Assembly: GCA_029975165.1 (NCBI GenBank)
Contig: JARKPR010000031.1
Coordinates: 1 to 64,000, forward strand
Length of the DNA stretch: 64,000 bases
Direction: 5' to 3'
Source: Selenomonadales bacterium
GTDB taxonomy: Bacteria; Bacillota; Negativicutes; Sporomusales; UBA7701
Shown here: piece by piece, positions 38,639-59,708 of the stretch
Layout: each line of letters starts with the position of its first letter
Position numbering within the stretch: the first letter of the stretch is position 1
Program-made: the position numbers and the translations under genes
Notes under the pieces: generated by a model
The model's database searches: none
What the model was told of the DNA's origin: nothing
Seen by the model: only the letters and a program-made list of their open reading frames with translations

Positions 38639-38769
38639 GACTGAGAATACAAGGGAATAGACGATTTTGCGAAGATTAACGGATAAGCAGGATTTTTGTC
38701 TGAATTTTAAGAATAAGCACTTAATATGGTTTTGCATACATAATACGTGATAGATGTGAGGTATTGCGT

Positions 38770-41109
38770 ATGACGAAAATAAAGCGTTACAATGCAAAAA
38801 AACTGTATTTTTCCGAGCGAATTACAACTGCCTTGAGGGGCATTTTTGACCATGCACTGACCGTTGTCGAAGCACCGATGGGTTACGGCAAAACTACCGC
38901 AATTAAGGTATATCTGAACAAAAACGCCACCTGCGTATTGTGGCAACCGATTTATAGCAATTCCCTAAGCAGCTTCTGGAAGGCATTTAGCAGTTTGTTC
39001 GCCAGATTCGACGAGGATTCTGCGCAAAGCCTGCTGTCGCTCGGATTTCCGACAGACAGCACTTTGATGGAGGAAGCTTTGCGTATTATCAGGGCGACGG
39101 AACTGCCTGTCCGAACCGCATTGGTGATTGACGACTATCATCTGATAGAGACGCTTGAACTCGATCGTTTTATTGAGTTTTTGACGCTGAACCAGATAAC
39201 CAATCTGCACATCGTCTTGATCGCACGGTTTACTCAACTGCAAAGCCTGGAGGAGTTGGCGCTAAAAGGCTATCTGCATTATATAGCGCCGCGAACATTT
39301 GAGTTTGCCCCGAAAGAAATTGCCGCATACTACAAAGCATGCGGGATCAGCCTAAGCGATCGTGAGGCGGACGAGCTGCACGCCCTGACCGAGGGCTGGA
39401 TCAGCGCCCTGTATCTGCTGATGTTGGAATTCATCGCGACAGGCAGCTACGCTCTGGAAAACAATATCTACAACCTGATCGATAAAGCGGTGTACATGCC
39501 GCTTTCCTCTGAGATAAAAGAATTTCTCCTGACCTTGTGCATTTTCGACAGTTTTACCCTCGAACAGGCCGTCCACATGTGGGGGAAGGACAATGCCGGC
39601 GAATTGCTGGCCGCAGTAACCAGCAAAAATGCTTTTGTGAGGTATGACGGCCGGGCCAGAACTTATTATGCCCACAACATCTTCACCGGCTTTCTGAAGG
39701 AAGTGCTGGCGAGAAAAGATTCGCGCTACAGGCAAGAGCTGTATCAAAAAGCGGGGCACTGGTACCTGAAAACCGGCGACTATTTTGCCGCCAGGCGCTA
39801 TTTTTACGAATGTGGGGACTTTGACAATATTCTTGTTGCTGTAAAGGAAGATCACTCCAGCGACTATACCGCCGAAAATAAAGAATTGCTCAAAAAGTAC
39901 CTTGAGGAATGCCCGAACGAGGTCAAAGCCCGGCATCATAACGCCATACTCAAATACGCGCTCCATTTATTTGTTTATAATGAGATGGCCTTATATAACA
40001 AGACCTGCGGCGAATTCAGCAACAACCTTAAAGCTGACGCCAGCCTTGATGCCAGCCTTCGTGGCCGCTTATCAGGGGACTTTGAACTTTTACTCAGTTT
40101 TGCCGCTTACAATGACATAAAGAAGATGTCGGCTCATCAATATAAGGCATGGAAGATTCTGGGCCAACCGACCTCTCTTTATGATGCCAGGAAAAGCTGG
40201 ACATTCGGGTCTCCGTCAGTACTCTATCTATACTACCGGGAAAGCGGCCGGCTGGCGGAACATACCCAAGACCTGCGAAAAGTCATGACCTATTACACCC
40301 GCCTTACCAACGGGCATGGCAGTGGCGCGGAATATATCATGAAAGCTGAAATGCATTTCAACGCCGGCGACTTTATGGACGCCGAGATTGCCCTGTACAA
40401 GGCCCTGGCCCTTGCCCAGGAAAAACCCGGACAACCCCAGACGGGAATCGTTGTCTGCGCCTTGTTTCTGCAATTGCGCCTAGCGTTAATGAAAGGCGAC
40501 TTTCCCGGCGCAGTGGATATTTTACAGAAGATGCGCACCGATATAACCAGCGCCCGGCGATACCTTCTTCTTAGCACAGCGGACATTTGCGAGGGATACA
40601 TGTACGCCCTTCTGCGACAAACCGGCAGGATACCCCAGTGGATAACAGAGGGCAGTGTACATAGCAGCCGCCTGATGTTTCCTGCCTTCGGAGCGTTCAA
40701 TATCGTATACGGCCGGGTGCTGCTGGTGCGCGGTGAATATTTGAAGCTGATCGGCAACGCAGAACATTTTAACCGGATCGCCGCCGTTTTTCCCAATCTG
40801 CTGGGACACATCTACACATACGTATACCTGGCGGCGGCTAACAAGCGAGCTTGCGAGGAAGCCAAGGCGCTGTCCGCCCTAAAGAGCGCACTAGATATTG
40901 CTATGGCCGATAAGCTTTACATGCCCTTTGTGGAAAACTGCGATTATATCAAGCCGCTGCTGGAGGAGCTTTTCGCAAGCGGCCTCCACCGCGAAGGCAT
41001 TAACAAAATATTGGAGTTATACGCTGTTCAGCAAAAAGCGACAGAGCAGATTGTCAAAGAGCGTTTTCCCAATACTGCTCCGCAGTTGACCAAGCGGGAA
41101 TGGAGATAG
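38770..41109 (+). CDS. MalT-like LuxR-family transcriptional regulator, C-terminus lost by frameshift
   Basis: Encodes 779 residues from ATG 38770 (TGAGGT site). The N-terminal STAND-type ATPase has Walker A G-Y-G-K-T-T (Lys 41) and Walker B V-I-D-D-Y-H near residue 118, followed by a winged-helix region and a long TPR-like region. This is the MalT architecture, which should end in a LuxR DNA-binding domain. The frame instead stops at 41109 just as that domain starts; the domain continues one frame over (41100-41249). As read here it could not bind DNA. It may be a pseudogene, a sequencing error or a switch. It has lower GC than the genes before the tRNA. Confidence 0.8.
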   Translation: MTKIKRYNAKKLYFSERITTALRGIFDHALTVVEAPMGYGKTTAIKVYLNKNATCVLWQPIYSNSLSSFWKAFSSLFARFDEDSAQSLLSLGFPTDSTLMEEALRIIRATELPVRTALVIDDYHLIETLELDRFIEFLTLNQITNLHIVLIARFTQLQSLEELALKGYLHYIAPRTFEFAPKEIAAYYKACGISLSDREADELHALTEGWISALYLLMLEFIATGSYALENNIYNLIDKAVYMPLSSEIKEFLLTLCIFDSFTLEQAVHMWGKDNAGELLAAVTSKNAFVRYDGRARTYYAHNIFTGFLKEVLARKDSRYRQELYQKAGHWYLKTGDYFAARRYFYECGDFDNILVAVKEDHSSDYTAENKELLKKYLEECPNEVKARHHNAILKYALHLFVYNEMALYNKTCGEFSNNLKADASLDASLRGRLSGDFELLLSFAAYNDIKKMSAHQYKAWKILGQPTSLYDARKSWTFGSPSVLYLYYRESGRLAEHTQDLRKVMTYYTRLTNGHGSGAEYIMKAEMHFNAGDFMDAEIALYKALALAQEKPGQPQTGIVVCALFLQLRLALMKGDFPGAVDILQKMRTDITSARRYLLLSTADICEGYMYALLRQTGRIPQWITEGSVHSSRLMFPAFGAFNIVYGRVLLVRGEYLKLIGNAEHFNRIAAVFPNLLGHIYTYVYLAAANKRACEEAKALSALKSALDIAMADKLYMPFVENCDYIKPLLEELFASGLHREGINKILELYAVQQKATEQIVKERFPNTAPQLTKREWR

Positions 41110-44655: not shown

Positions 44656-47600
44656 ATGATTGGTTTACGCGACGACGCCATTTACCGGAATATGATGGAG
44701 CAAGCGCGCGACATTATTCTGGTTGTCGATACATGCGGCAACATCTTGATCGCGAATACAGCGGCTATAAATGCTTACGGCTACTCTCGCGACGAGCTTC
44801 GCAGCATGCGGATTAATGAACTGCGCTCGCCGGAAACCAGAAACGCGGTCGACGCTCAGCTTAGGATAGCGCAGCAAGAAGGGATTTTGTTTCGTACCGT
44901 CCATATGCGGTGGAACGGCGAATCTTTTCCGGTGGAGGTAAGTTCGCGGAGAATCCGATTATCGGAAAAAGAAGCGGTTATCAGCGTCGTCCGGGATATC
45001 ACGGCGACAGTCGCCATGGAAACAGCAATCAAAAAGAGCGAGGAAAAATATCGGCTTTTGAATGAAGAACTGACCGCCGCCAACGAGGAGCTTATTGCTT
45101 CGGAGGAGGAGCTGCGGCAGCAATTTGACGAGTTGACTGCTAGGGAAGAGGCTATCGACCGCCAGAACATCGTCTTATCTTCACTCCATGAAACAGCATT
45201 GCAGCTTATGGAAAAACCGAAGCTAAATGATGTTCTCAAATTTATTGTCTTCAGCGCGACCGAGCTATTGGGAACGCCTCACGGAGTCATAAGATTGGTG
45301 GATGAAGAAAAGGGTATTTTCTGCAACGAGATTGGTCTGGGCCATTATACCCAGCATGCCGGCCGAGATATAAAACTAACTGAAGGACTTAGCGGCCAGG
45401 TATATAAAACCGGCAAAATCATCATTGTTAATGATTACAGTAATTGGGCGAATCGTTTACTTGACCCGTTTTTCGACCAAGTGCATGGTATCGCCTATGT
45501 GCCGCTGAAAGCGGGCGATAAGGTTATCGGTATATTGGGCGTGGAGTTCCTTGATCCGCAGCGAAGATTTTCCGACCAGGACATATCTTTTTTAAGTAGA
45601 TTTGCCGATCTAGCCTCTATTGCTTTGAAAAACGCGCAATTGCTTAGCACGCTTGAGAAATCAGAGAAAGAACTACGGAAAAGAAACGAAGAACTTGCGG
45701 CGGCTCACGAAGAACTGTTGGCGTCGGACGAAGAATTGAAACAGCAGTTTAATGAATTGATGGCAATAGGGGATAAAATACGGCAACAGAACATCGTTTT
45801 GACATCTGTCCACGAAACGGCGATGAGCCTGATGAACAGACTTGAGCTTGATGAAGTGCTTAAGACTATTATTTCCAGTGCTGCCCGGCTTATGGGCACG
45901 CCTGACAGCTATATAAATCTGGTGGACGAAAAAGAAAAAATCTTTGTCAGAAAAGTTGCCATAGGGCGATTTGCTCAGGACATGACAAGACAGACCGCTG
46001 TCATGGAGGGTCTTCTTGGCCAAGCTTACATTACAGCCCAAATCGCTGTCGTAGATGACTACCGAACTTGGGAGCTGCGTTTGCCTGACCCTGTTTTTGA
46101 CGATCTACATTGTTGCGTGGTAGTTCCCCTAAAAGTCGAGGAAAGGGTGATTGGCGCTTTTGGCCTGGCTTTCACTCAACCGGGCCGGACTCTTGCCGAT
46201 CATGAATATTCACTGCTCCAGCGGTTTTCGGACATGGCTTCCCTAGCCCTTGATAACGCAACCCTGGTTGCCTCCTATAAAAATGAGCTGCAGGAGCGCA
46301 GGCAGGCTGAAAAAACGATAAAAACCTCGGAAGCGAAATACCGGGCTATTTTCGAAGCCGCGAATGACGGTATTTATATACATGACATAGAAACCGGAAA
46401 AATTCTTGATGTAAACGAAAAAGCCTGCGCAATGCATGGATATACCCGTGAAGAGATACTCTCCGGAGATTTGGGCGTTCTCGGCACCGGGGAGTCTCCG
46501 TTTACCGAAAATGAAGCCAGACAGTGGCTGGGGCACGTCGTCGCCGGCAGAGCTCAGCTATTTGAATGGCAAAATCGGCATAAGGCCGGCCATTGCATTT
46601 GGATGGAAGTAAATTTGCAAAGGGCAAGGATTGGCAACGAGGACCGCATCTTGGCAATTGTTCGGGACATATCGGAACGCAAGGCGCATGAACATGCTAT
46701 CCGACGAATGGCTTACCATGACTCTCTTACCGGTTTGCCAAATCGGGCATATTTGAAAGAGCATCTCGATCAAGAATTGGAAAAATCACGACGGGGCGAG
46801 GCGGCGGGTACAGTTCTGTTCGTCGACCTGGATAACCTGAAAACGATCAATGATACCTTCGGCCACTCATATGGCGACGGGGTGATCATCAAAGCCGGGG
46901 CCTACATTTTCGCTGAGGCGGGGGAAGGCGCGTTCGTGGCGAGGATTGGCGGCGACGAATTCATTGTTGTACTGCCAGGTGAAGCTGATCGGGAAAAGGT
47001 TAAGAAGATCGCCGACGGCATGGTTAAGCTACTCGAACGGGATTACGATATTGGCGACGCCGGCGCCTATTTGTCCGGCAGTGTGGGCATCGCTCTTTAT
47101 CCGGAGGACGGTGATACAGCCGAGGATATTTTAAAGAACGCGGATTTGGCTCTTTATGCAGCTAAAGGGAGCGGTAAAAATACCTGGCGTTTCTACGAAT
47201 CCAGTATGCAAAGAAATGCCTATTATGACATGCTTCTTAAACAAGGTCTTCGCGAGGCTATCAGTCGCAATGAATTGTCGCTGCATTATCAGCCGCTGGT
47301 GAGCACACATACCTCAGGTGTAGTCAGCTTTGAGGCGCTGCTGCGGTGGAACAGTGCCGAACTCGGTCCCGTACCGCCCGGACGGTTTATCCCGTTGGCG
47401 GAGGAAAGCGACACCATTCAGATAATCGGAAGATGGGTCATCTGGGAAGCCTGCCGGTTTGCCTGCAGGCTCTGTGACTTAGGAAAAGGTTATATTCGTG
47501 TATCGGTCAACGTATCGCCACGTCAACTGGCGGCCGATGATTTTGTTCCATTTATTCGCGATGCAATAAATGCTGTCGGGATCAAACCGAACCAACTTGA

Positions 47601-48000
47601 GTTTGAAATTACGGAGAATATTTTGATTACGTCAATGAAAGAGAGCTCTCAAAAGCTCAAAGACCTGAGAGAACTCGGGGTGCATCTTTCACTTGATGAC
47701 TTTGGCAGCGGATACTGTTCCTTGACTTACCTGAAGAAGTTACCGGTGGAAACACTAAAAATCGACAAGTCGTTCATTGATGACATTGAGTATGACGAAG
47801 ACCAGTTGCGATTCGTCAATTCCATTATTAATATGGCGCATGTGCAAAGACTTAATGTTGTTGCCGAAGGTGTCGAAACCCAAGAGCAGTTAAACAGACT
47901 TATGCAATGTCGCTGCGACCTTGCCCAGGGATATATTTTCAGCCGGCCGATGCCTGAAAGAGAGGCCGTGATATTCTTGGCCGGCAGTGAAGCGATATAA
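44656..48000 (+). CDS. PAS-GAF-GAF-PAS GGDEF-EAL cyclic-di-GMP protein
   Basis: Encodes 1114 residues with no membrane helix, so it is cytoplasmic. Domains in order: PAS (about 5-125), coiled coil, GAF (about 180-325), coiled coil, a second GAF (about 385-535), PAS (about 560-680), GGDEF (GGDEF at 765-769) and EAL (E-A-L at 893-895). Each coil-GAF unit begins with the same pattern (E-L-x-A-A-x-E-E-L and Q-N-I-V-L), so this module was duplicated within the gene. Both catalytic motifs are intact. The ribosome site is weak (GAGGA about 14 bases upstream), so the start is less certain. Confidence 0.9.
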   Translation: MIGLRDDAIYRNMMEQARDIILVVDTCGNILIANTAAINAYGYSRDELRSMRINELRSPETRNAVDAQLRIAQQEGILFRTVHMRWNGESFPVEVSSRRIRLSEKEAVISVVRDITATVAMETAIKKSEEKYRLLNEELTAANEELIASEEELRQQFDELTAREEAIDRQNIVLSSLHETALQLMEKPKLNDVLKFIVFSATELLGTPHGVIRLVDEEKGIFCNEIGLGHYTQHAGRDIKLTEGLSGQVYKTGKIIIVNDYSNWANRLLDPFFDQVHGIAYVPLKAGDKVIGILGVEFLDPQRRFSDQDISFLSRFADLASIALKNAQLLSTLEKSEKELRKRNEELAAAHEELLASDEELKQQFNELMAIGDKIRQQNIVLTSVHETAMSLMNRLELDEVLKTIISSAARLMGTPDSYINLVDEKEKIFVRKVAIGRFAQDMTRQTAVMEGLLGQAYITAQIAVVDDYRTWELRLPDPVFDDLHCCVVVPLKVEERVIGAFGLAFTQPGRTLADHEYSLLQRFSDMASLALDNATLVASYKNELQERRQAEKTIKTSEAKYRAIFEAANDGIYIHDIETGKILDVNEKACAMHGYTREEILSGDLGVLGTGESPFTENEARQWLGHVVAGRAQLFEWQNRHKAGHCIWMEVNLQRARIGNEDRILAIVRDISERKAHEHAIRRMAYHDSLTGLPNRAYLKEHLDQELEKSRRGEAAGTVLFVDLDNLKTINDTFGHSYGDGVIIKAGAYIFAEAGEGAFVARIGGDEFIVVLPGEADREKVKKIADGMVKLLERDYDIGDAGAYLSGSVGIALYPEDGDTAEDILKNADLALYAAKGSGKNTWRFYESSMQRNAYYDMLLKQGLREAISRNELSLHYQPLVSTHTSGVVSFEALLRWNSAELGPVPPGRFIPLAEESDTIQIIGRWVIWEACRFACRLCDLGKGYIRVSVNVSPRQLAADDFVPFIRDAINAVGIKPNQLEFEITENILITSMKESSQKLKDLRELGVHLSLDDFGSGYCSLTYLKKLPVETLKIDKSFIDDIEYDEDQLRFVNSIINMAHVQRLNVVAEGVETQEQLNRLMQCRCDLAQGYIFSRPMPEREAVIFLAGSEAI

Positions 48001-48051: not shown

Positions 48052-48102
48052 AAAAAGGATACTTTTTGGGTCTATTTTGCTTATTTCGCTTGGTGTTATA
48101 GT
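48052..48102 (+). promoter_or_regulatory. 30-bp conserved element with -10 box, copy 1
   Basis: The 30 bases 48052-48081 (AAAAAGGATACTTTTTGGG, then TCTATTTTGCT) match 54250-54279 at 29 of 30 positions. In both copies a -10-like box begins 45 bases after the element starts (TATAGT 48097-48102 here). No clear -35 box is seen, which suits activator-dependent promoters. It precedes the first gene of the exported-protein cluster. Confidence 0.65.
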
Positions 48103-48167: not shown

Positions 48168-48839
48168 ATGAGATATCTATGCATGGCGGCATTGTGGATG
48201 ATGATGGTACTGCCGGCTTTTTTCGGTAACTTGCCAGCGGCCCAGGCATGCGAGGAAGGCAGCCGGACGGGTCCGGGCAAGTTTTTTCCTGTTGTCGTAG
48301 GTAAAGACGCGCCCAGGGTAAGTTGGACAATCGCGCCGGACACAATTGCCGTTTATGCCGCCGATGCGCCCTGCCGGCTGCTGCAGGCGATCCCCTATGA
48401 CGCCGCCATGCTGCCTGAGCTCAGCGACAGCGAGCGGGTCATAGCGGAGGATATGAATTTTGATGGCTATACGGATTTAAAAATCATGGCAGGACGGGGC
48501 AACGCCAATGTGTACTATAATTGCTGGCTGTGGGACCAGAAAAGGCAAAAATTCATTTTGCACGCAGAATTGAGCAAGCTAGCGTCACCCCAATTTGATT
48601 CCGGCGCTAAGACAATCCTTTCCTTTACCCATATAAGCGCCGCCGACAGCGTGGAGGCAACCTATACGTTTCAAAACGGCAAGCTCAGGCCGGTGCAAAT
48701 TATGGAGCAGGCATATGACAGGAAAGAAAATGTAATAGTAGCCAGACAGTATCGTGTGGACGAAAAAGGCAAGCGGCACCTTGTACGTGAACAGGTAGTT
48801 CGGCAGGAGCAGGAAGCAGCGGTGGATGAAAGCCCCTAA
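48168..48839 (+). CDS. Secreted FG-GAP/XAC2610-like protein
   Basis: Encodes 223 residues from ATG 48168 (GATGAGGTG site). A signal peptide (about 1-26, ending A-A-Q-A) leads an exported domain with E-D-M-N-F-D-G-Y-T-D-L, the calcium-binding-like pattern of XAC2610-related and FG-GAP proteins, and a Y-Y-N-C-W-L-W-D strand. Such proteins are usually extracellular and of unknown function. It is the first gene of the exported cluster. Confidence 0.75.
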   Translation: MRYLCMAALWMMMVLPAFFGNLPAAQACEEGSRTGPGKFFPVVVGKDAPRVSWTIAPDTIAVYAADAPCRLLQAIPYDAAMLPELSDSERVIAEDMNFDGYTDLKIMAGRGNANVYYNCWLWDQKRQKFILHAELSKLASPQFDSGAKTILSFTHISAADSVEATYTFQNGKLRPVQIMEQAYDRKENVIVARQYRVDEKGKRHLVREQVVRQEQEAAVDESP

Positions 48840-48993
48840 TCAGAGGCGGCGCCATTCCCCAACGCAACGCTTCGCAAAGTAAAGCCTTCAGATGAATAGT
48901 GGTATTCGCATAGCTGAAACCGCGCGAGCTTTCTTTCGGGCAAGTGGAGAAATTCGCGCAATTTTCTTTATCCTGGCATGAGGAGTGGGCATT

Positions 48994-49713
48994 TTGAAGC
49001 AGAGAATAGTTGCGTTGCTCATAGTGCTTGTTTCGGTCCTCGGTTGTTTCCCAATAAGCGCTTTCGCCAATGCGGCGGAGCCTCCGGCGTTAATTGTAAT
49101 TTTAAAAGACGCTCCCCAAGATGCTGCTATTTCTATTGTTTCCGCAGGTGCGGCGAAGGCAGGGCTAAAAAGCGAGGTTGCGTGGGAGACGTACTATGTT
49201 TTTTATAACAGAGATATGGGAAGTTCCAACGAAATTATTCTCAAAGTGTCGGGAAACGGCATGGAGTATGAACAGATCATAGGTAAACAGCATCTGAATG
49301 CTTACACAAGCGTTATTACGCTGGATCTTGCCGCGCAAACCATAGAAGCGGGAAAGCTGTTGACGCGTTCCATACTGTTGGTGACTTTGCGCTTGTTTTT
49401 AACTTTGGCAATAGAGGGCATCATTTTCTTTTTGTTTGGCTTTCGAAATAAAAAGAGTTGGCGCGTATTCCTGATCATGAATTTAGTAACGCAAGGCATT
49501 TTAAATATAGTTCTGGACGGCGCCACGCCGCTTGCTTATTATCTAATCTTTAACCTTATTTTTATGGAAGCCGTAATATTTTTAGCGGAAATTTTCGGTG
49601 TGCTTGTTCTAATAAAAGAGCACGGCGAATTTCGTCGCGTTTCCTTTGCGCTAGTTGCCAACACGGCAAGTCTTATATTAGGAGGTTATTGGATCATGAA
49701 CCTGCCGGTTTAA
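48994..49713 (+). CDS. Exported multi-pass membrane protein of unknown function
   Basis: Encodes 239 residues from TTG 48994, eight bases after AGGAG. A signal peptide (about 1-28) is followed by an outer domain (about 30-125) and four membrane helices (about 125-235). The second half resembles an integral membrane domain found after secreted domains in several clostridial proteins. No catalytic motif is seen. It is transcribed with its neighbours in the cluster. Confidence 0.7.
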   Translation: MKQRIVALLIVLVSVLGCFPISAFANAAEPPALIVILKDAPQDAAISIVSAGAAKAGLKSEVAWETYYVFYNRDMGSSNEIILKVSGNGMEYEQIIGKQHLNAYTSVITLDLAAQTIEAGKLLTRSILLVTLRLFLTLAIEGIIFFLFGFRNKKSWRVFLIMNLVTQGILNIVLDGATPLAYYLIFNLIFMEAVIFLAEIFGVLVLIKEHGEFRRVSFALVANTASLILGGYWIMNLPV

Positions 49714-49787
49714 TAATAACTTTCCCGCCGGCAAACGGAAAAGGCTGGGCTGCAGCAGGCAAATACGTTACACAGAAGGTGTTTCAT

Positions 49788-50222
49788 ATGGAAGGATTTT
49801 ATGTTATTCTGTCCGGCGTTCTTCTTCTGGCGATCGGCTTATGGCTGTTCAAAAGAGAGAAGGCGCTACACAGCGTCTGCACGGAGCAGACCACCGGCAG
49901 GGTGGAGGACATCTGGCGCGAAACCGAGGAAAAATGGCAGGAAGACAAAGACGGCAAACGGTATCTGGAAATCACGGACTATTACTTCCCGGTATTTTCT
50001 TATACTGTCAACGGGCGGAACATTACCGTGAAATCCTCCGTTGACTCCGGTCACCCCCGCTTTTCTCCCGGGATGCCTGTAACCATCTTTTACAATCCCG
50101 GCAAAGAGGAACAATATTACATTGCCAAAGAAAGCGCCGGCAAAAAGAAGATGAGCTACCTGGCCGCCATAATCGGGGTGGCGCTCATCGGCATTGGCAT
50201 CGCGGTCATGATTTCGGAGTAA
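49788..50222 (+). CDS. DUF3592 domain membrane protein
   Basis: Encodes 144 residues from ATG 49788 (GAAGGTG site). Two membrane helices (about 5-22 and 122-142) flank an extracytoplasmic domain with Y-Y-F-P-V-F-S-Y-T-V-N-G and V-T-I-F-Y-N-P, diagnostic of DUF3592. The function is unknown. Such proteins are often encoded in clusters of secreted proteins. Confidence 0.8.
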   Translation: MEGFYVILSGVLLLAIGLWLFKREKALHSVCTEQTTGRVEDIWRETEEKWQEDKDGKRYLEITDYYFPVFSYTVNGRNITVKSSVDSGHPRFSPGMPVTIFYNPGKEEQYYIAKESAGKKKMSYLAAIIGVALIGIGIAVMISE

Positions 50223-50235
50223 GGAGGCGGGCGGT

Positions 50236-50421
50236 ATGCCAGCCTATCTGGCTGCTATTTTATTAAGCGGTTGTCTTGCGGCAAGCGTTTTGCTTTTCCT
50301 GGGCAGGCCGAAACGGTGGCCGCGCCGGCGGCAACGCATTCTGGGCGGATGCGGACTGTTTTTTGCCCTGTTGCTGAGCCTGTATTTGGCGGCAACTTTG
50401 CTGCTATTGGGCAAAATGTAA
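50236..50421 (+). CDS. Two-helix small membrane protein
   Basis: Encodes 61 residues from ATG 50236 with a perfect AAGGAGG site 13 bases after the DUF3592 stop. Two hydrophobic helices flank a short basic loop (R-P-K-R-W-P-R-R-R-Q-R). A decayed copy lies at 54394-54581, so this is a real gene family and not a chance frame. Function unknown. Confidence 0.7.
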   Translation: MPAYLAAILLSGCLAASVLLFLGRPKRWPRRRQRILGGCGLFFALLLSLYLAATLLLLGKM

Positions 50422-50457
50422 AACAGCATATTAAATACCAAAAGAGAGGGGAAAAAG

Positions 50458-50961
50458 ATGAAAAAAAGGATTGTGTGCCTGCTGGTTGCGGGCCTTTTAT
50501 TCGGGATGGCGCTGACCGGTTGCGGTAAAAAAGTGGAAGTTAAACTGCTGCCGGAAAACGCCTTTTTGGACTTTGCCTCCGATGTTGTGGTGGAGCCTAA
50601 GAAACCGCCCTATAATCTGGGCAACTGGCTGGAAGGCAACGAGCCCATGTGGGAAGTGAAAATTCCGCAGACTGGCATGTATAAAATCAGCCTGGAATAT
50701 TCCCGGCCGGGCCAGACCGACAAGGCCAAAGGAATCGTCCAACTGCAGCATAGTAGCCATGACTCCAAAGAACTGAACTTTACGGCGCGGTCCACAGGCA
50801 AAAATAACAAGGACTGGTCGGTTTACCAAGCCCATGAAATCGGCGGCGCTTACTTGGAGGCCGGCACCTGGCAGCTGTCCATCACGACTAATTTCAGCGC
50901 CGATTATTCCGGGGTTGATCACTTTATTAACCTGCGCAGCATCACACTGCAACTGGAATAA
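50458..50961 (+). CDS. Lipoprotein with carbohydrate-binding-like domain
   Basis: Encodes 167 residues. The signal peptide ends in the lipobox A-L-T-G-C (Cys 22), so the protein is lipid-anchored outside. The remainder is a beta-sandwich-like domain similar to CBM6/CBM35 modules (W-E-V-K-I-P-Q-T-G-M-Y and L-E-A-G-T-W-Q-L-S). It may bind sugars or wall polymers. AGAGGGG lies before the start. Confidence 0.75.
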   Translation: MKKRIVCLLVAGLLFGMALTGCGKKVEVKLLPENAFLDFASDVVVEPKKPPYNLGNWLEGNEPMWEVKIPQTGMYKISLEYSRPGQTDKAKGIVQLQHSSHDSKELNFTARSTGKNNKDWSVYQAHEIGGAYLEAGTWQLSITTNFSADYSGVDHFINLRSITLQLE

Positions 50962-50974
50962 GCTGATAACTCGG

Positions 50975-52378
50975 ATGCTGCAACTACTGTTTTCGATCTT
51001 TTTGCTGGTTTTGCGGAAAATCGGGCAGATATTTCTGGCCGTACGCAGGTTTGTGTATACCGCCGATAAAAAAAGCGCGCTTGTAAAGGCCGGTCGGCAC
51101 CGGCGGCTGACGCTCGTCTTTGGAGCGGTGCTGCTGCTGACCGCGCTCCTCGGTGAACCGGCTCAGGATTTTATCTGAGAGGCCGGACTCGAGTGGCTGG
51201 AATTCCCCGCCCAGATAATTTTCGAATGGCCTTTTTTGACCGCCGCGGTCGTTACCATGGCATACGCCGCCATGAGCTTTTTCCTCCGCCACAAAAAACT
51301 GCAGGACGAGCTGGCGGCGGCAAGCCCGACTGCCGTCCAGGACAACACCCTGGTAATGCTGGAAGGTTTTCGTCTTCTGGCGAAGCTGTCGAGGCCGCTG
51401 GGCATAGTGGTTGGCGCCATTGGCATCCCTGTTTTCCTGGCGGGCGTGCAATTCGATGAGCGGGATTGGATTTTCCCGGGAGCGATTATGTCGCTTGCGG
51501 GACTGACGCTGATCCCTACCGGCTATTGGCTGTCAGGAAAAGCCAACAGGCTGTTCCGGGAAAAATATGTCCTGAGCTTGCTGACCGAACGGTTTGAAAA
51601 CCTTAAATACGACAGAAACGGGCGGTTCGGCCGGGAGCTTTTTCAGGAACTACGGGTAATGGAACGGATTTACAGCGTTGACGGCAATGACTGGATCGAG
51701 GCCGACTACAAAGGTATCCATTTTGTCAGCGCCGACTGCCGGGCGTTTCAAACGAGCCTCCTGGACGGCATTGCCGCCATCGGCGGAAACGCCGCCTTGG
51801 CTTTGACCGATGAAGGCTGTTTCAACGGACGTATTTTTCACTTCCGGTTTGCCAGGTCCTTCGGTAACGGCCTACAAATTATCACGCCGGATTTTATGCA
51901 TGCCGTGTTCAGCCGTGGCTGGCCGGGGCAGTCTGTACCCTTGGGATGGGAAAGGGTGGAAACGGAACTGTATGAATTCAATCGGTACTTTGATGTTTAT
52001 GCTCCCGCCGCTCCGGCCGCGCTGGAAATCTTAAAACCGCAAGTGATCGAAGCGGTCGCCCTTGTCCGGCGGCTTACCACCCTGCCGCTGCTCTTCTGCT
52101 TTAAAAATCAGGACTTGTACCTGTTTATCGACTGCGGAAGGGATATGTTCGACCTTACCAACAAATCCGGCCGCAGCTCGGTGGAAGAGTACGATAAGCT
52201 CAAGGCGGACGTGGCCACGGTCACAGCGTTTCTCGACACGATGTATCTGAAAGGAACTTTACCAGGGCAGGCTACAGCCGGACATAAAGAAACGGGGTGT
52301 AACACAAATGGAATTTATCCTCGCGGCCGGAGTTGTCGTGGTATTTGCGACTTACTGGGCTATCGGCGCGTCCAATAA
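50975..52378 (+). pseudogene. DUF3137 membrane protein interrupted by in-frame TGA
   Basis: The frame from ATG 50975 has one stop, TGA 51176-51178, then continues open to 52378. Read through, it gives about 467 residues: an N-terminal basic segment and helix, two further helix pairs (about 75-100 and 130-175) and a DUF3137 domain (about 190-425; Y-E-F-N-R-Y-F-D-V-Y and L-Y-L-F-I-D-C-G). DUF3137 proteins are standard partners of LemA. The last 71 bases overlap lemA in another frame; a stop in the expected place (52300) is one frame off, so a second indel may be present. Either a decayed gene, a sequencing error or, less likely, a selenocysteine codon. Confidence 0.75.
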
Positions 52379-52850
52379 TTTTAAGCGGATGCTGGTAAAA
52401 ATTGAGGAAGCCGATTCGGGTATCGAGGTGGCCCTGACCAAACGCTATGACATGCTGACCAAGCTGCTGGCAGTTTGCAAAAACTATGCTAAGTACGAAG
52501 TGGAAACTCTGTCCGCTGTGGTCAAGCTGCGGCAAAACATGCCTGCCGCCGAGAAAACCGCAGCCAATCGGCAGATGGATGAGGTTTTTAAACGCATCCA
52601 GGTTATTGCCGAAGCCTATCCCCAATTGAAGGCCAGTGAAAACTATATAAACCTGCAGAACGCCATCGTCGATGCGGAAGACCACCTGCAAGCCTCCCGC
52701 CGGGTGTATAACATGAACGTATCCGCTTACAATCAGGCCATCGCCGTGTTTCCCGCCAGCATTATCGCCGGGATGCAGAAACTGATCCCCCGGGACTTCT
52801 TCGCGGCCGAGGAGCATAAAAGAGGTGATGTGGCGATGAATTTCGACTGA
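52308..52850 (+). CDS. LemA family protein
   Basis: Encodes 180 residues: an N-terminal membrane helix (about 1-20) and a long helical domain with Y-D-M-L-T-K-L-L, Y-P-Q-L-K-A-S-E-N-Y and the A-Y-N-Q-A-I-A-V-F-P segment of LemA. LemA is a membrane-anchored helical bundle whose function is poorly known; it commonly pairs with DUF3137, encoded just upstream. The gene is intact although its partner is not. Confidence 0.92.
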   Translation: MEFILAAGVVVVFATYWAIGASNNFKRMLVKIEEADSGIEVALTKRYDMLTKLLAVCKNYAKYEVETLSAVVKLRQNMPAAEKTAANRQMDEVFKRIQVIAEAYPQLKASENYINLQNAIVDAEDHLQASRRVYNMNVSAYNQAIAVFPASIIAGMQKLIPRDFFAAEEHKRGDVAMNFD

Positions 52851-52932
52851 GGCATCACCGGTACAATTAGCGGAGAATGGCGCATTCTTTGGGAATTATG
52901 AATGGCCCAAGACAAAAAGGAGATGAGCGAGG

Positions 52933-54144
52933 ATGAAAAGCGTATGGCGCGGACTGTTGACCCTGGTGCCGGTATTGCTGCTGTCGGCGGCATTGGCCAG
53001 TTGGACGGCAGACGCGGCTCACCGGCGTCCGGCGGAAGTCGCGATCAACAACGACAACACTGAAATCGGGGTTATGACGCAAGAATATATCGGGAGAAAT
53101 GTCGCCGAAATTCTTATGATTTACTATGACGGCGGACAGCCGGCGCTGGCAAAGTTCGGCTGCAAAAACCCGGAAATCGAGTCGCTCAACAACGCGATCA
53201 AGTTAGGTATTCAGCACCAATACAACGAGTTCATGGCAAAGGAGCGCGATGGCAGTTGGATAGAGATTAAATCCTATCCTTTCAGCAGCGAGGACTACCT
53301 GCAGATCGTGACGACGTCCGCCACCTATCCCTCTTACGGAACGGACGGCAGTATGTCGAGCTATAATTTCGCTAAAAAAGAGAATAAGTTTATGGTTCTG
53401 GCGGAGGTAATGCACGGATTGGGCCTGAACGAGCGTACGCTCGCGCAAAGGGTGAAAAAGCTGTATGTGCCGGAGGCGCCTTCCCAGTCGGTGGGGGAGG
53501 TCAAAGCAACCGGGTTTCTGATCGGCCGGGGTCCGTCCGGACCTGTTACGCAGCTGCTGCTTGAGGTGGTGATCGTCACTCCCGGCGCGGAGCCGTGGAA
53601 GTATTTTTTTAGCTATACGCCGGTGCTGAATGAACTGATCCGGCTGAACAGCCATTGTCTGTTCGATCCGGGCGATATGGATAAAATGAATCCGCCGCTG
53701 TCTTACCAGCTAGGGGCGGCCGAGGGCCACGAGGGCGGGGGACCGGAGGGTTTGCGGCTTAGCTTCGATATCCGGGGGCTGAATGTGATTACTCCCGGCC
53801 GCGAATACAGCCTGGACGGGATAGTGCATTTTACCTTGGAAAAATTGGCACCCGCCGGCAATGACCGGGAAAGCGTGCTAACCTTGATCAAAAACCGGGA
53901 AGGACATGATCTTCGTTTGATTACCTTAACCCCGTCCGCCGAGCATTCCGCCCTCCTGTCATACCCTGCGTGGCTTGTGGTGTATAACAAAGGGAGGCAT
54001 GAGGATAACAGGCACTGCGTGGACGTATACGTTCATACGGACGCGGCGGATTTCAGGCTTCATGCCAGCGTGCCGGCCGATTTTGCGATGGATTATCACG
54101 ACGAAATCGGCAGGAGGATGGCTACCGTCGCCTTCAGGCGTTAA
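52933..54144 (+). CDS. Large secreted protein of unknown function
   Basis: Encodes 403 residues from ATG 52933 (AAAGGAGATGAG site). A signal peptide (about 1-29, A-D-A-A) is followed by a soluble outer protein with many Tyr and Ser. N-A-I-K-L-G-I-Q-H-Q-Y near residue 90 and the H-E-G-G-G-P-E-G loop near 275 are notable, but no family is recognised. Last gene of the first exported-protein unit. Confidence 0.65.
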   Translation: MKSVWRGLLTLVPVLLLSAALASWTADAAHRRPAEVAINNDNTEIGVMTQEYIGRNVAEILMIYYDGGQPALAKFGCKNPEIESLNNAIKLGIQHQYNEFMAKERDGSWIEIKSYPFSSEDYLQIVTTSATYPSYGTDGSMSSYNFAKKENKFMVLAEVMHGLGLNERTLAQRVKKLYVPEAPSQSVGEVKATGFLIGRGPSGPVTQLLLEVVIVTPGAEPWKYFFSYTPVLNELIRLNSHCLFDPGDMDKMNPPLSYQLGAAEGHEGGGPEGLRLSFDIRGLNVITPGREYSLDGIVHFTLEKLAPAGNDRESVLTLIKNREGHDLRLITLTPSAEHSALLSYPAWLVVYNKGRHEDNRHCVDVYVHTDAADFRLHASVPADFAMDYHDEIGRRMATVAFRR

Positions 54145-54249
54145 CGGCTCCTGTTCCCTAATAGGCGAAAGTTATCAATATCAAAGTTGAACCTTAGTTG
54201 GAATTTTTGCTGTTTGCGCCACCGTTTTAGTTTAAGCAGATTGCTGAAT

Positions 54250-54300
54250 AAAAAGGTTACTTTTTGGGTCTATTTTGCTCAGGCTTGCCCGGTGTACAAT
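54250..54300 (+). promoter_or_regulatory. 30-bp conserved element with -10 box, copy 2
   Basis: Bases 54250-54279 match the element at 48052 at 29 of 30 positions. TACAAT at 54295-54300 lies at the same distance. It precedes the decayed two-helix gene and the DUF1036-like gene. The rest of 54145-54393 shows no gene. Confidence 0.65.
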
Positions 54301-54393
54301 TTTTAGCAAAGGTAAACCTTCATACATGACAGTTTGTGTGCGATTGCAGGCGGCATGAATCACGTAGCGCGCAAATAACCGAGGAGGTGGACT

Positions 54394-54581
54394 GTAGCTG
54401 CTTTTCTTGCGGTCGCTTGGTTGTACATGTCCATTGCGGCCGGTGTTTTCTTTTTTTTCCGGGGTGACCTGCCCCGCTTATCTGTCCGGAAGCGCCGGAT
54501 GCTGTGAGCTGTTGTCTTCCTCTTGCTCTGTTGGCGTGCCTGTATCTAAGCCTGATCTTGCTGTTGCTTGGCCGCGTTTAG
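54394..54581 (+). pseudogene. Decayed copy of the two-helix membrane peptide
   Basis: After a GAGGAGGTG site the frame reads A-A-F-L-A-V-A-W-L-Y then F-F-F-F-R-G-D-L-P-R-L and K-R-R-M-L before a stop; in another frame the second helix continues L-Y-L-S-L-I-L-L-L-L-G-R-V. This matches the layout and end (S-L-Y-L...L-L-L-L-G-K-M) of the intact gene at 50236. It lacks a start codon and has a stop and a frameshift. The stretch 54582-54739 holds nothing else. Confidence 0.65.
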
Positions 54582-54739
54582 TTTCTGCGCGACGTCGCCA
54601 TTGATGGCGGCAGCGATAAGATAGACCCCGCTCCGGCGGACGGTTACAGAAGGCGTAATAACGATTTTTCGCCTTATGAGCAAGAGCGCGGTGACGCTGT
54701 GAACGAATGACAAGTAAAAATAGTAAAGAGGTGGATGCA

Positions 54740-55168
54740 ATGAAAAAGAATGTATTAAAAACCTTGCTCGGTTTATTGGTCCTGGTAATGGTCGCCTTTG
54801 TGCCGCGGTCTGCGGAAGCCGTCAACATCAAAATCAGCAACCCGTATTCGGACACTATGTGGGTGGCCCTCGTTTATTTCGAGGATTCGGCCGGAAAATG
54901 GGTAACCAGAGGCTGGTACAAGGTATCCCCTAACGACACGCGGAACCTGAACTTCTCCTCCTCCACCAAACGGGATTACGTTTATATTCACGCCCACACT
55001 AGCGAGGCATCCTGGGGTGGCAACGAAAACTCAATAAAGCGAACGGTGATTAAAGAAGCGTTCAAATATTATGACGGCGAAACGTGCCCGGCAGGCAGCA
55101 ACCGGCGGCAGGTATACCTTGACCGCTGGTATGCGGAAAATGATGGCGTCGTTTACTGGCGCCCCTGA
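54740..55168 (+). CDS. Secreted DUF1036-like protein
   Basis: Encodes 142 residues from ATG 54740 (GAGGTGG site). A signal peptide (about 1-27, S-A-E-A) is followed by a DUF1036-type domain: I-S-N-P-Y-S-D-T-M-W-V-A-L-V-Y near the start, G-W-Y-K-V-S-P and Y-V-Y-I-H-A. The function of these exported proteins is unknown. Confidence 0.75.
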   Translation: MKKNVLKTLLGLLVLVMVAFVPRSAEAVNIKISNPYSDTMWVALVYFEDSAGKWVTRGWYKVSPNDTRNLNFSSSTKRDYVYIHAHTSEASWGGNENSIKRTVIKEAFKYYDGETCPAGSNRRQVYLDRWYAENDGVVYWRP

Positions 55169-55241
55169 GCTCCGTAGATTTGTCCGGCTGCGTCTGCATC
55201 GTCTTGCCGTTGTGGTTCTATCATGGTGAAGAGGTGTCGAA

Positions 55242-56390
55242 ATGAGGGCGTCGTCCCCAATATTATCATTGCTTATTGCCGTGCTGCTTTTGCTGGCGGT
55301 TGCCGGCTGCGGCGATTCGCCGGGAAAAATCGATGAAAATATCAAAAAAATTGATATAACTCCTCATAAATTTGTTAAAGGGGATACAACCGTATTTCTG
55401 CCGGAAATTGCCGGCATGAAAAACGAAAGCCTGCAAAAAAAAATAAACGATAACCTCAAAACGGCGATCCTTGACCTCGAACGCAAGGGCGACAAAAGCG
55501 GCCTGGAAGGAGAGTACGGCATTATCTTCTTGAACGACCGGCTGATGGTTATTGCCTTTGACGGCGCAAATGCAATCAAGGACGACAATGGCAACTTTGA
55601 GGTTCTAAAAGGATTGCATATCGACCTTACTTCCGGTAAAATCTACGAACCTACGGAGATCTTCAAAAAGGACAGCAAGTACGAGGCGGAAATACTCAAC
55701 CTCGCGCAATCGTCTCCCGAGCTGCGGCTTTATAACGCCGGCAACACGGAATGGCCGTATGGGCTGTTCAAAAGCAACTGGGACAGCAAAAAGAAAAATC
55801 AGTTTTACATGCTGACCGAAGATTATCTGTGGGTATATACTTTCTCGGTCGACGAAGAAGGCCTGGTGCCGGGCTACGGCATTCCTTACGACAAAATCAA
55901 ACACATCATCAACACCGACAGCAATCTGTGGAAGGCCTTTAGCAGCGGTGAAAACCGGGCGGAGGATTTCGGCGAGGTTGCGGAACTGTTGGAATACCAA
56001 GCAGACGTAGAAGCGCGCGAGAAGGATGCCGTGCAAAAGGCCGCTGCGCAGAAAGCTGCCGCGCAGAAAGCCGCCGCCCAACCGGGTATTTCGTGGAAAA
56101 CCACCAACGTATTGGGCAATGGGGACGGGAGCATCACCATCAACGGGCAATATGTGAATACCTCGGATAAAACGCTGACTAAAATCCTCTGGAACAAGCT
56201 GACTATCTACTACAGGGCGACCTCAGGCGAAGAAAAATCATTTGTAAAAACATTCAACAAGGAGCTTGTGAAAGAAGCGCCTCCCGGGCGAGCGGTATCG
56301 GCCTGGTTCCGGGTCAACGTGCCGGGCGACTATAAAGCGTTTATCAGGCTCAACAATCAATTCAGGTATAACTATACCTATTCAAACTAA
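55242..56390 (+). CDS. Lipoprotein with DUF3298/RsiV-like and FxLYD-like domains
   Basis: Encodes 382 residues. The lipobox is A-V-A-G-C (Cys 23). Residues 30-235 resemble DUF3298-type domains of anti-sigma or secreted proteins (L-P-E-I-A-G-M-K-N-E, then D-L-T-S-G-K-I-Y and P-Y-D-K-I). A charged linker has three tandem Q-K-A-A-A units near residue 265, followed by a C-terminal beta domain (about 285-382). It is lipid-anchored outside; no partner sigma factor is adjacent. ATG 55242 follows GAAGAGGTG. Confidence 0.65.
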   Translation: MRASSPILSLLIAVLLLLAVAGCGDSPGKIDENIKKIDITPHKFVKGDTTVFLPEIAGMKNESLQKKINDNLKTAILDLERKGDKSGLEGEYGIIFLNDRLMVIAFDGANAIKDDNGNFEVLKGLHIDLTSGKIYEPTEIFKKDSKYEAEILNLAQSSPELRLYNAGNTEWPYGLFKSNWDSKKKNQFYMLTEDYLWVYTFSVDEEGLVPGYGIPYDKIKHIINTDSNLWKAFSSGENRAEDFGEVAELLEYQADVEAREKDAVQKAAAQKAAAQKAAAQPGISWKTTNVLGNGDGSITINGQYVNTSDKTLTKILWNKLTIYYRATSGEEKSFVKTFNKELVKEAPPGRAVSAWFRVNVPGDYKAFIRLNNQFRYNYTYSN

Positions 56391-56446
56391 CGCGGCCGAA
56401 GAGGTTGTAGCTCCTCTGGAACGGCGTCCGGAAAATTCGACCAGCG

Positions 56447-56480
56447 AAAAACGCGGGACCAGGCGGTCCCGCGTTTTTTC
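56447..56480 (+). terminator. Bidirectional-type terminator closing the exported cluster
   Basis: A 13-bp perfect stem (AAAACGCGGGACC and complement) around AGGC, with T on the right and A on the left, so it can serve both the lipoprotein gene and the converging response regulator. Confidence 0.93.
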
Positions 56481-56509: not shown

Positions 56510-57163
56510 TTAGTTTTTCGGGACGTCGGCGGAAAAAAAGCGCTTTACCTCACTCCGTTTGCCTATATCCAGCCTGGCCAATACCCGCGACACCACCTTC
56601 TTCACATAGGCCGGGGAATAGCTTAGCGTGCGGCCGATCTCCTCGTTGGTATATCCCTGCGCCACCAGCATGGCCACGGCGAACTCCGTTTTAGTCAATA
56701 GCTGCTCCATCTGCAAAAGCCCATCCGGATGGAATCTGCCGGCTTCCGCCTGATTTTTCTTCAGTATATCCAACTGTCGGCGGCTTCGGGCGAGGGACAG
56801 GTGAATAGTTATACGCGCCAGCAGAACATCCTTGGCCACAGGTTTCCTGATATAATCCACCGCCCCCAGGCGCAGCCCGTAAGCCTCGCTGTCGGTACCG
56901 CCGAGGCCGGTCAGATAAATAATCGGCACCGTTGTATCCCGGTTCATGGCCCGCAGCCGCAACAAAGTCTCAAAGCCATCCATGTCCGGCATGGCGATGT
57001 CCAGCAGAATCAGGTCCGGCCACCTGCTCTTTTCCAGAAAGCGCACCGCTTGCTGCCCGGACTTGGCCAGGCTTACCGCGTAATGCTCCTTCAGCATTTC
57101 CTCCATTACTTTGAGAAAAACAATATCGTCGTCAACAACGAGAAGCTTATTGGAGGAATCCAA
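56510..57163 (-). CDS. Response regulator with LuxR-type DNA-binding domain
   Basis: Encodes 217 residues from TTG 57163, nine bases after AAAGGAGG. The receiver domain (about 5-125) has phospho-acceptor Asp 55 (L-L-D-I-A-M-P) and Lys in R-K-P-V. The C-terminal domain (about 150-210) has E-E-I-G-R-T-L and P-A-Y-V-K-K-V-V in a LuxR-like helix-turn-helix. Its start overlaps the sensor-kinase gene end by 17 bases, so they form one two-component pair. The target may be the neighbouring exported cluster; this is inference. Confidence 0.9.
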   Translation of the reverse strand: MDSSNKLLVVDDDIVFLKVMEEMLKEHYAVSLAKSGQQAVRFLEKSRWPDLILLDIAMPDMDGFETLLRLRAMNRDTTVPIIYLTGLGGTDSEAYGLRLGAVDYIRKPVAKDVLLARITIHLSLARSRRQLDILKKNQAEAGRFHPDGLLQMEQLLTKTEFAVAMLVAQGYTNEEIGRTLSYSPAYVKKVVSRVLARLDIGKRSEVKRFFSADVPKN

Positions 57164-59567
57164 GGCTAGCTTCCTCCTTTATCCGTTTTTCGCAGAATTG
57201 CCGGAAAAGCGCCTCCGCATCTTCAAAATTAAGCTCATCCACCGCCATGCGCGTCCTCTCCAGCAATCGCCTGGCATCCGGCCCCCTCTCCGAGGCTATC
57301 AGCACCGACAGCGCCTGCCGGCTTTCCGCGCAGTGGTAATCGGCAATATGAGCGGCAGTGCGGGCAATCAGGCCGGGAATATCCGTATGGGCGGGCGGGC
57401 TCGCGTCCGTTGACGCCTGCTCCTCCCCTAACAAATTCCGGTCGATTCCCCGGCGGACGGTCTCCAATTCGTACAGCAGGAGCGGAATCGCGGTCCTGAT
57501 GTATTCCGTCTCCCCCAGCAAACTTTTTTGTTCGACCCGCCGGGCAATTGCGGAAAGCTCTTCGGCGCCGATCATCCGGGCAAGCGTCTTGAGCGAATGC
57601 GCCGAGTGAGCGATCCCGGAGAGGTCGCCGGCCACGGCGAGCCGGGCAAAAAGGTCCGCTGTCTGGTGCGTATGGGTGTGGAAAAGGCCGGACACGGTTT
57701 TATATTGTGATAAACTCCGGCTTAGAAACGGAAGTCCGGCTTCCAGAGAAATATCGTGCCGTTTCAACTGCTGCTGAAGCCCTCCGGCTGCGTCCGGGCA
57801 TTCGGGATCACCGCCGACGATTATCCGCGTAACCAGCTTCTCCGGCAAGAAGGACAGCAATGTTTGCTCCAGCTTGGTCCACGGCACAGGCTTGGCAAGA
57901 TAACCCGCGAAGCCTTCTCTCAAAAGCTTTTGGCGGGTGCCGGTGGTGACATCGGCGGTTAGGGCGACGACAGGGCTGCGGCACTTCAACCGGCGCAGCT
58001 CATGCAAAGTCTCTATGCCGTCCAGTTGCGGCATCATATAATCCAGCAAGATAACATGATACTCATTTTGGAGAGCCAATTCAATACCCTGCCGCCCGTT
58101 CGGGGCAGTATCGATCTGCAGCAAAGTCCGGGCCAACAACGATTTTATCACATTCAAATTACCCTCGTTATCATCGATGACAAGAATTCGCCCCTGGGGA
58201 GCGAGAAAACTCTGCTCGGCCAATGGAACGACAGGCCCGCGACACGAATCAGGCGCGTTCGCCGCATAACGCTGGGGAATTTCGACGGTGAAAGTACTGC
58301 CCATGCCGTGCTCGCTCTGTACGGACAAGCGCCCGCCCATCAAAGCCGTCAATTCTTTAGCGATGGCGAGACCCAGGCCGGTACCCTCGACCGCCAGATA
58401 ACGGGCCGCCTCCTGGCTGCGGGTGAAGGCGTCGAAAATCGCGCCGCGGTTTTCCTGACGGATGCCGATGCCCGTATCCTGCACCGCGATGGCAAGCATG
58501 ATCCCGTCTTTGCCGGGCAGCTCCGTTCCGGTGACGGAAAGCCTGACTGACCCGGCTTGGGTATACTTCGCGGCATTGCTTAAAAAATTGGCGGCAATCT
58601 GGCGAATATGCAGCCGGTCCCCCCAGAGCATCGCCGGCACCCCTGAAACCTCTGTCGAAAATAGAAGCCCTTTCTTTTCCGCCTGCTCCCTGCCCATGTG
58701 CATCAGGCCCTGCACGAGATCATCGGTAAAATAGGCTTCCTCCAGGAGCTCCAGCTTGCCGGACTCGATTTTGGAGACATCCAGAATATCATTGATAAGG
58801 GCTAAAAGCATTTGCCCGGCATCTTGCGAGCGGGCGACATAACTGGCGATTTCCGCGGAAGGGCGCTCCCGCAAAACCATCTCATTCATGCCCAGCATGA
58901 TATTGATCGGTGTACGGATCTCGTGGCTCATTTTGGCCAGAAACATGCTTTTGGCCCGGTTGGCCCGGATAGCCTCCTCCCGGGCTTGTTCCAACTGCCG
59001 CTGCTGGCGATTGTACATGTGGAAACTGAGATACATGGTAACGCCCAGCGCAAGACTTACGGAAACAAACCCGATAACGACATCCGCCAGCAGCTCTCTC
59101 TCGCTCGCAAACCAGACGATATGCGCCGGCACGTAATATGCATAGGCGCAAAGTCCTATGTAAAACAGCAGTTCCAGCGCCGCGACGGCGACCATTACCC
59201 AGCCTTCCAGCATGAACACGGTAAAAACCGTGCTGAAAATGAAAAACGAAGGAAGAGCGCTTCGATATCCGCCGCCATGAAAAAACAAAAAGGCAAGACC
59301 CAGTAAAAAAATAACGAAGATCGTGGCTAGGTAACACCGCTGATATTGCCCGCTGGTGTAGGAATAGTAAAGCAGGCCGAAAGAAAGCCCGGCAATGGAC
59401 AAATTGACCAGGGCCATCAGATTCCCGCCGGCGACCCATAGCGACGACACTGCCATCAACAGACTGATGACGGTACCCACCATGGCGAGCAGATTGAACA
59501 TCCGTACGCGGAAATCCAGTTCCGGATAGAAAAATTTGTTAATTTGCTTTTGCAGCAAGGATATCAT
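57147..59567 (-). CDS. Hybrid sensor histidine kinase with receiver and HPt domains
   Basis: Encodes 806 residues from ATG 59567 (TTGGGGTG site). Six membrane helices (about 23-185) form a 7TM-like sensor region, then a HisKA domain with S-H-E-I-R-T-P (His 215), an ATPase domain with G-T-G-L-G-L-A-I, a receiver with L-L-D-Y-M-M-P, and a C-terminal HPt domain with A-H-S-L-K-T-L-A. This gives a complete internal phosphorelay ending in the HPt, which would pass phosphate to the response regulator encoded downstream. The signal is unknown. Confidence 0.93.
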   Translation of the reverse strand: MISLLQKQINKFFYPELDFRVRMFNLLAMVGTVISLLMAVSSLWVAGGNLMALVNLSIAGLSFGLLYYSYTSGQYQRCYLATIFVIFLLGLAFLFFHGGGYRSALPSFFIFSTVFTVFMLEGWVMVAVAALELLFYIGLCAYAYYVPAHIVWFASERELLADVVIGFVSVSLALGVTMYLSFHMYNRQQRQLEQAREEAIRANRAKSMFLAKMSHEIRTPINIMLGMNEMVLRERPSAEIASYVARSQDAGQMLLALINDILDVSKIESGKLELLEEAYFTDDLVQGLMHMGREQAEKKGLLFSTEVSGVPAMLWGDRLHIRQIAANFLSNAAKYTQAGSVRLSVTGTELPGKDGIMLAIAVQDTGIGIRQENRGAIFDAFTRSQEAARYLAVEGTGLGLAIAKELTALMGGRLSVQSEHGMGSTFTVEIPQRYAANAPDSCRGPVVPLAEQSFLAPQGRILVIDDNEGNLNVIKSLLARTLLQIDTAPNGRQGIELALQNEYHVILLDYMMPQLDGIETLHELRRLKCRSPVVALTADVTTGTRQKLLREGFAGYLAKPVPWTKLEQTLLSFLPEKLVTRIIVGGDPECPDAAGGLQQQLKRHDISLEAGLPFLSRSLSQYKTVSGLFHTHTHQTADLFARLAVAGDLSGIAHSAHSLKTLARMIGAEELSAIARRVEQKSLLGETEYIRTAIPLLLYELETVRRGIDRNLLGEEQASTDASPPAHTDIPGLIARTAAHIADYHCAESRQALSVLIASERGPDARRLLERTRMAVDELNFEDAEALFRQFCEKRIKEEASLGFLQ

Positions 59568-59708
59568 CTGGCACCCCAAAGGCAGCAAAAAATGCGCGGC
59601 GCATAAATAAATCCGGCACTGGCGCGTCATATGTATAGATAAAAACCCCGCTGCCTTTAATTATTTTACCATATCGACGGCCAGGAATAAAAATATGTGA
59701 TACCTTGA

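Follow-up and report, generated by a model that had tools for sequence, protein, structure and literature searches.

Two-component regulons that respond to envelope stress are known, among them LiaRS, Cpx and Rcs. Systems of this type comprise a membrane sensor kinase, a DNA-binding regulator and several envelope proteins whose genes share a promoter motif, and these features have counterparts in the locus described here: ten genes or gene remains at positions 48168-56390 of a 64,000-nucleotide (nt) stretch of contig JARKPR010000031.1 from a Selenomonadales bacterium (hereafter the window). However, the kinase encoded here is a multipass membrane protein carrying REC and Hpt domains, the phyletic range is very narrow, and the promoter box and gene set could be matched to no described regulon. 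A second parallel is offered by the antagonism-resistance pathways of Pseudomonas aeruginosa, in which gene sets are also switched coordinately (PMC8926400), although those pathways comprise other genes, whereas at the present locus a phosphorelay adjoins a transcriptional box, and the defensive output is a proposal only. A third is XAC2610 of Xanthomonas citri, a periplasmic inhibitor and immunity protein of a lysozyme-like type IV secretion system effector (PMC10933484). Literature searches, with most subscription literature outside their reach, returned no earlier description of these families as one system (LemA and DUF3137 appeared together only as unrelated table rows) and no Sporomusa envelope two-component regulon.

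The cluster is probably a patchy, accessory and coregulated envelope system governed by the phosphorelay encoded beside it. A first-pass annotation of the window had already proposed an envelope-associated system on which a kinase/regulator pair converges, and had listed ten genes around LemA. All ten are present on the + strand in the order given there (Table 1), and the kinase and regulator genes do converge on them, with a strong terminator-type hairpin between the two directions. Leaving the regulators aside, the cluster is predicted to encode mostly exported or membrane-bound proteins, as judged from signal peptides, lipoboxes and hydrophobic segments in the translations. Profile searches with Pfam and NCBIfam assigned families to five genes (XAC2610_fam, DUF3592, DUF3137, LemA and DUF1036) and yielded no accepted family for the 239-, 403- and 382-amino-acid (aa) proteins, the two-helix peptide or the CBM-like lipoprotein. 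LemA (136 bits; cut-off 26.2) and DUF3137 (58 bits; cut-off 26.1, in a frame carrying a TGA codon) are clear family members, here placed within a putative regulon with its own promoter box. The protein earlier called FG-GAP-like belongs to the XAC2610 family, and the 382-aa lipoprotein resembles PdaC (E=0.046) and the originally named DUF3298 (E=2.4) only below threshold.

Evidence for shared regulation comes from a 30-nt direct repeat, overlooked in the first-pass annotation, that begins at 48052 and again at 54250 and represents a common promoter box. The repeat is unique to these two places in the 4.19-Mb genome (21-nt core, at most three mismatches). The box itself comprises 23 nt, AAAGGWWACTTTTCGGGTCTATT, and lies 19-20 nt ahead of a TATAGT-like -10 element. 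This spacing to a hexamer reading TATAGT, TATGGT or TACAAT holds for all 13 sites recovered from the window genome and its relatives, where the chance of a -10 per site is 0.03 for any loose version and 0.001 for the exact set. Pairwise identity among the sites is 0.86-0.90 in the box and only 0.24-0.26 in the far flanks, with a second rise at the -10 element. With the hexamer counted as -12 to -7, the box would occupy about -55 to -33, overlapping the -35 region like an activator site. Twelve of the 13 boxes head cluster genes.

In an independent search by pattern, covering 120 genomes, near-exact boxes (at most two mismatches) turned up only in the window genome (G000, two), Sporomusa sp. 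KB1 (G027, four), a genome of the same genus (G011, four), the metagenome-assembled genome Negativicutes bacterium STF2_20 (G055, two) and a fifth genome (G040, one); three-mismatch matches in other genomes were no commoner than with a reversed-pattern control. A promoter sequence model returned the 13 sites at E<=3e-10 and its best other match among 27 genomes at E=0.0017, with nothing between; the model was built from these sites, which makes their own scores a matter of construction, but this does not account for the lack of matches of intermediate strength. The match at E=0.0017, in G021, was rejected as a true box, as it covers the model partially and sits at the boundary of unrelated genes with no adjoining cluster gene. 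Such a repeat might instead mark a site of recombination or insertion at which gene modules are shuffled. The modules between boxes do vary from one genome to another, each copy has fused, split or truncated genes, and the 30-nt repeat flanks a 6.2-kb segment. Nevertheless, the constant spacing to the -10 element, an orientation that is always towards the genes, and the failure to find the box in viral contigs render shuffling very improbable as an alternative to a promoter function.

The protein that binds this box is probably the adjacent REC-LuxR regulator. At E<1e-40, exactly four of the 120 genomes have an orthologue of the regulator: G000, G011, G027 and G055, which are those with intact clusters, and all four are among the five genomes that carry the box. 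If genomes were independent, this overlap would have a probability of 5/8,214,570 (~6e-7), a figure whose true weight is smaller given that the four include two members of one genus. Kinase orthologues were present in the same four of 13 genomes checked, and the recognition-helix region of the regulator, YSPxYxKKVVSR, is kept in all four. Regulator and kinase genes adjoin clusters at five of seven loci, namely those in the window, G011, G055 and the Sporomusa loci KB1b and KB1c; at KB1c the kinase is intact, but the regulator (L077:16891-17196) retains only its first 72 and last 22 residues. The full-length CBM-like lipoprotein is equally restricted, being found in those four genomes among 379 Negativicutes, such that box, regulator and lipoprotein exhibit nearly identical phyletic patterns.

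Related clusters reside in three more Negativicutes genomes, with three loci (KB1a to KB1c) in Sporomusa sp. KB1, and a broken copy is present in G040. The earlier reading survives because the families co-occur in these four other genomes and because a common box was found, with shared regulation being suggested by one conserved box ahead of nearly every cluster. Chance assembly of unrelated DUF genes might be entertained on the grounds that several single families, such as LemA, are widespread and that the copies are decayed, but scattered genomes contain the set again, each time with these regulators and this box, leaving this explanation barely credible. The recurrent parts are the box, the XAC2610, DUF1036 and DUF3137 proteins, the CBM-like lipoprotein and the kinase/regulator pair. 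Close DUF1036 copies are found in G011, KB1a (two), KB1b and G055, with a partial copy in G040. The close LemA subfamily (59-77%) is confined to G011, G027 and G055; LemA is absent at KB1b and KB1c and was not found on the short G040 contig, and none of the cluster neighbours lies within 1.5 kb of LemA at 27 other loci. We therefore abandoned LemA as the core around which the first-pass annotation had arranged the genes.

Clues to function come from two of the recurrent proteins. The NF047539 domain scores 87 bits in the window protein and 73-85 bits in five relatives (cut-off 35), and the Ca-binding loop D-x-N-x-D-G-x-x-D is kept in all seven copies. In these respects, with the domain present in every cluster copy tested, the proteins resemble the XAC2610 (X-Tfi) peptidoglycan-hydrolase inhibitors (PDB 4QTQ). 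They differ in the alignment of the inhibitory tyrosine (see below), in that some carry an additional C-terminal domain, and in that no cognate lysozyme-like effector was found. For the CBM-like lipoprotein, a jelly-roll model (predicted local distance difference test score, pLDDT, 63) gave top Foldseek matches that include CBM6 and CBM35; a curated match to either family was not reached (best CBM_35, E=0.063), and the likeness is that of a moderate-confidence fold model only.

Because the XAC2610-like proteins resemble peptidoglycan-hydrolase inhibitors and one cluster copy carries a type VII secretion operon, the output of the system could be an inducible shield that guards the envelope from competitors or from enzymes attacking peptidoglycan, a possibility that we advance tentatively. 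The operon in question belongs to G011, where a box-driven unit continues into genes for EssC (1105 bits) and several WXG100 proteins (L075:11445-19901 and L038:5791-8342). A related but distinct idea, which we regard as rather unlikely, is that the cluster belongs to an antagonism system in which immunity-like and surface proteins accompany secreted weapons. The immunity function of XAC2610 itself (PMC10933484) is in accord with it, as are the G011 boxes that head the EssC/WXG100 unit and an autotransporter-like protein. In opposition, EssC is absent from G000, G027, G055 and G040 (G000 yielded a partial match below the cut-off only), no toxin domain was recognised in the cluster proteins searched, and anti-phage models (PADLOC) matched none of nine proteins. 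Type VII secretion was dropped as a general partner of the cluster, as true EssC occurs in G011 only.

Several observations weigh against a set of envelope genes under its neighbouring phosphorelay. In G040 the box is perfect and the cluster genes are broken, and neither kinase nor regulator was found; the contig with the box begins 325 bases before it. Neither the two KB1a boxes nor the box ahead of the G011 autotransporter-like gene is adjacent to a regulator, and two of the five box genomes belong to one genus, which leaves about three independent lineages. Moreover, no tyrosine of the cluster copies aligns with the inhibitory Tyr170 of XAC2610, although their invariant Tyr116 lies about four residues off in the same loop. 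The G040 box also accommodates the main rival for the role of box reader: the genes may be coregulated by another factor, such as a MalT-like STAND-LuxR protein, with the adjacent phosphorelay acting elsewhere. A STAND-LuxR gene with a GerE domain resides inside a box-driven unit of G011 (L038:9776-12355), and an N-terminal remnant of such a gene lies between box and DUF1036 in KB1b. We judge this to be quite unlikely, as it is the two-component regulator that tracks the box across the 120 genomes and adjoins most clusters, whereas the window cluster and the G055, KB1a and KB1c loci showed no STAND gene. A large STAND/MalT-like LuxR regulator is also encoded in the window, at 38764-41109.

Under the favoured interpretation, in which the neighbouring phosphorelay governs the set, the membrane-embedded hybrid kinase would sense an envelope condition and phosphorylate the REC-LuxR regulator, which would then bind the 23-nt box standing in for a -35 element. 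Binding would activate two promoters in the window, with box 1 serving 48168-54144 and box 2 serving about 54380-56390. The products, comprising the XAC2610-type protein, the CBM-like lipoprotein, DUF1036, LemA with DUF3137 and several membrane proteins, would coat or span the envelope, where they may act jointly in a physical sense. Gene content, recurrence of the set, the box with its fixed -10 spacing, and the co-occurrence of box, regulator and lipoprotein were computed directly. A more ambitious and doubtful version holds that this is a laterally spreading, undescribed envelope-defence system of diderm Firmicutes, in which phosphorelay and box switch on a shield built from peptidoglycan-hydrolase inhibitors, lipoproteins that bind glycans, and a membrane complex of LemA and DUF3137, with type VII secretion and an autotransporter added in one lineage. 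No function is known for the families LemA, DUF3137, DUF3592 and DUF1036, and the predicted switch and box offer a direct handle on them. If the interpretation is correct, the locus represents an envelope-response system of double-membraned Firmicutes, among which model organisms are few, and in G011 a single switch would tie a type VII secretion operon to an autotransporter-like protein.

The system is patchy and partly decayed, with damage in nearly every copy. In the window, DUF3137 contains an in-frame TGA and a second two-helix peptide survives as a frameshifted ghost; elsewhere, the lipoprotein and 239-aa protein are remnants in KB1a, the regulator is shortened in KB1c, a frame is broken in G055, and DUF3137 and DUF1036 are broken in G040. 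Because decay affects every copy, the TGA is likelier to be a nonsense mutation or a sequencing or assembly error than a selenocysteine codon. C-terminal remnants of window-type DUF3137 lie directly ahead of LemA in KB1a and G011, and hence suggest an ancestral order lipoprotein-DUF3137-LemA. Regulator and lipoprotein were found in none of the four congeners of the window organism that were examined; therefore, the system is often gained and lost, or moves laterally. Carriage by phages or plasmids was rejected, since the box is missing from viral contigs and no homologue of the lipoprotein was found on plasmids.

Table 1. Features of the window cluster and its surroundings, followed by the gene content of related loci.
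Feature or locus	Position	Strand	Evidence or gene content
Regulatory box 1	48052..48081 (core 48054-48076)	+	-10 TATAGT at 48097-48102; unique repeat
Secreted XAC2610-family protein, 223 aa	48168..48839	+	NF047539 E=7.6e-25; Ca loop DMNFDGYTD; aligned with six cluster homologues
Signal-peptide protein with C-terminal transmembrane helices, 239 aa	48994..49713	+	Orthologues (55-60%) in G011, KB1c; remnant in KB1a
DUF3592 membrane protein, 144 aa	49788..50222	+	PF12158 E=1.1e-9
Two-helix membrane peptide, 61 aa	50236..50421	+	Like peptides immediately after boxes in KB1c, G040; also in G055
CBM6/35-like lipoprotein, 167 aa	50458..50961	+	Jelly-roll model; Foldseek matches
DUF3137 membrane protein gene, in-frame TGA 51176-51178	50972..52378 (open part 51179-52378)	+	PF11335 E=9.8e-16
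LemA protein, 180 aa	52308..52850	+	PF04011 E=9e-40
Secreted 403-aa protein, two-module fusion	52933..54144	+	Modules are separate genes in G011
Regulatory box 2	54250..54279 (core 54252-54274)	+	-10 TACAAT at 54295-54300
Ghost of second two-helix peptide (stop and frameshift)	~54380..54590	+	Three-frame translation
Secreted DUF1036 protein, 142 aa	54740..55168	+	PF06282 E=4.6e-8
382-aa lipoprotein	55242..56390	+	PdaC/DUF3298 likeness sub-threshold only
Hairpin, likely terminator between converging units	56446..56479		dG -25.8, z -5.6
Response regulator, REC-LuxR/GerE	56510..57163	-	Domain search; orthologues
Hybrid kinase, HisKA-HATPase-REC-Hpt, multipass membrane N-terminus	57147..59630	-	Domain search; orthologues
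KB1a (L039)			Lipoprotein remnant, LemA, DUF3137, 239-aa-protein remnant, XAC2610, two DUF1036
KB1b (L044)			DUF1036 converging with regulator (75%) and kinase (72%), arranged as in the window
KB1c (L077)			Kinase (60%), truncated regulator, two-helix, XAC2610, 245-aa membrane protein, DUF3137, three small proteins, XAC2610 with extension, lipoprotein
G011 (L075 and L038)			XAC2610, DUF1036-CAP fusion, pirin-like protein, kinase, regulator, 249-aa membrane protein, DUF3137, small secreted protein, type VII secretion operon, 403-N module, small protein, STAND-LuxR, lipoprotein, LemA, DUF1036, two small proteins, 403-C module
G055 (L040)			DUF3137 (frame broken), lipoprotein, DUF1036, GGDEF gene, kinase, regulator, small secreted protein, two-helix, XAC2610, LemA
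G040 (L078)			Two-helix, XAC2610, broken DUF3137, small protein, partial DUF1036

Of 150 related genomes, G011 is the only other one with the secreted 403-aa protein, there divided between two genes, with a signal sequence on each half; a single-protein scan of the genome collection gave no match. Its two G011 counterparts are separate secreted proteins (L038:8224-9231 and L038:15717-16304), and this fusion or fission hints at a functional link between the modules. The AlphaFold model was uninformative (pLDDT 38), and kinship with the 382-aa lipoprotein was dismissed after a comparison that found no similarity. Two box-driven genes of G011 have unusual products: at L075:6166-6996 a DUF1036 domain is fused to a CAP domain as a single gene, and at L076:5171-7946 the thirteenth box, distant from the cluster, precedes the gene for a secreted repeat protein of 872 aa, whose C-terminus is autotransporter-like and ends in Phe. 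An Rfam scan of the window returned a tRNA only. The window also encodes two related GGDEF-EAL proteins (29548-32454 and 44656-48000; 40% identity over 582 aa), and the gene for the second sits just ahead of the cluster.

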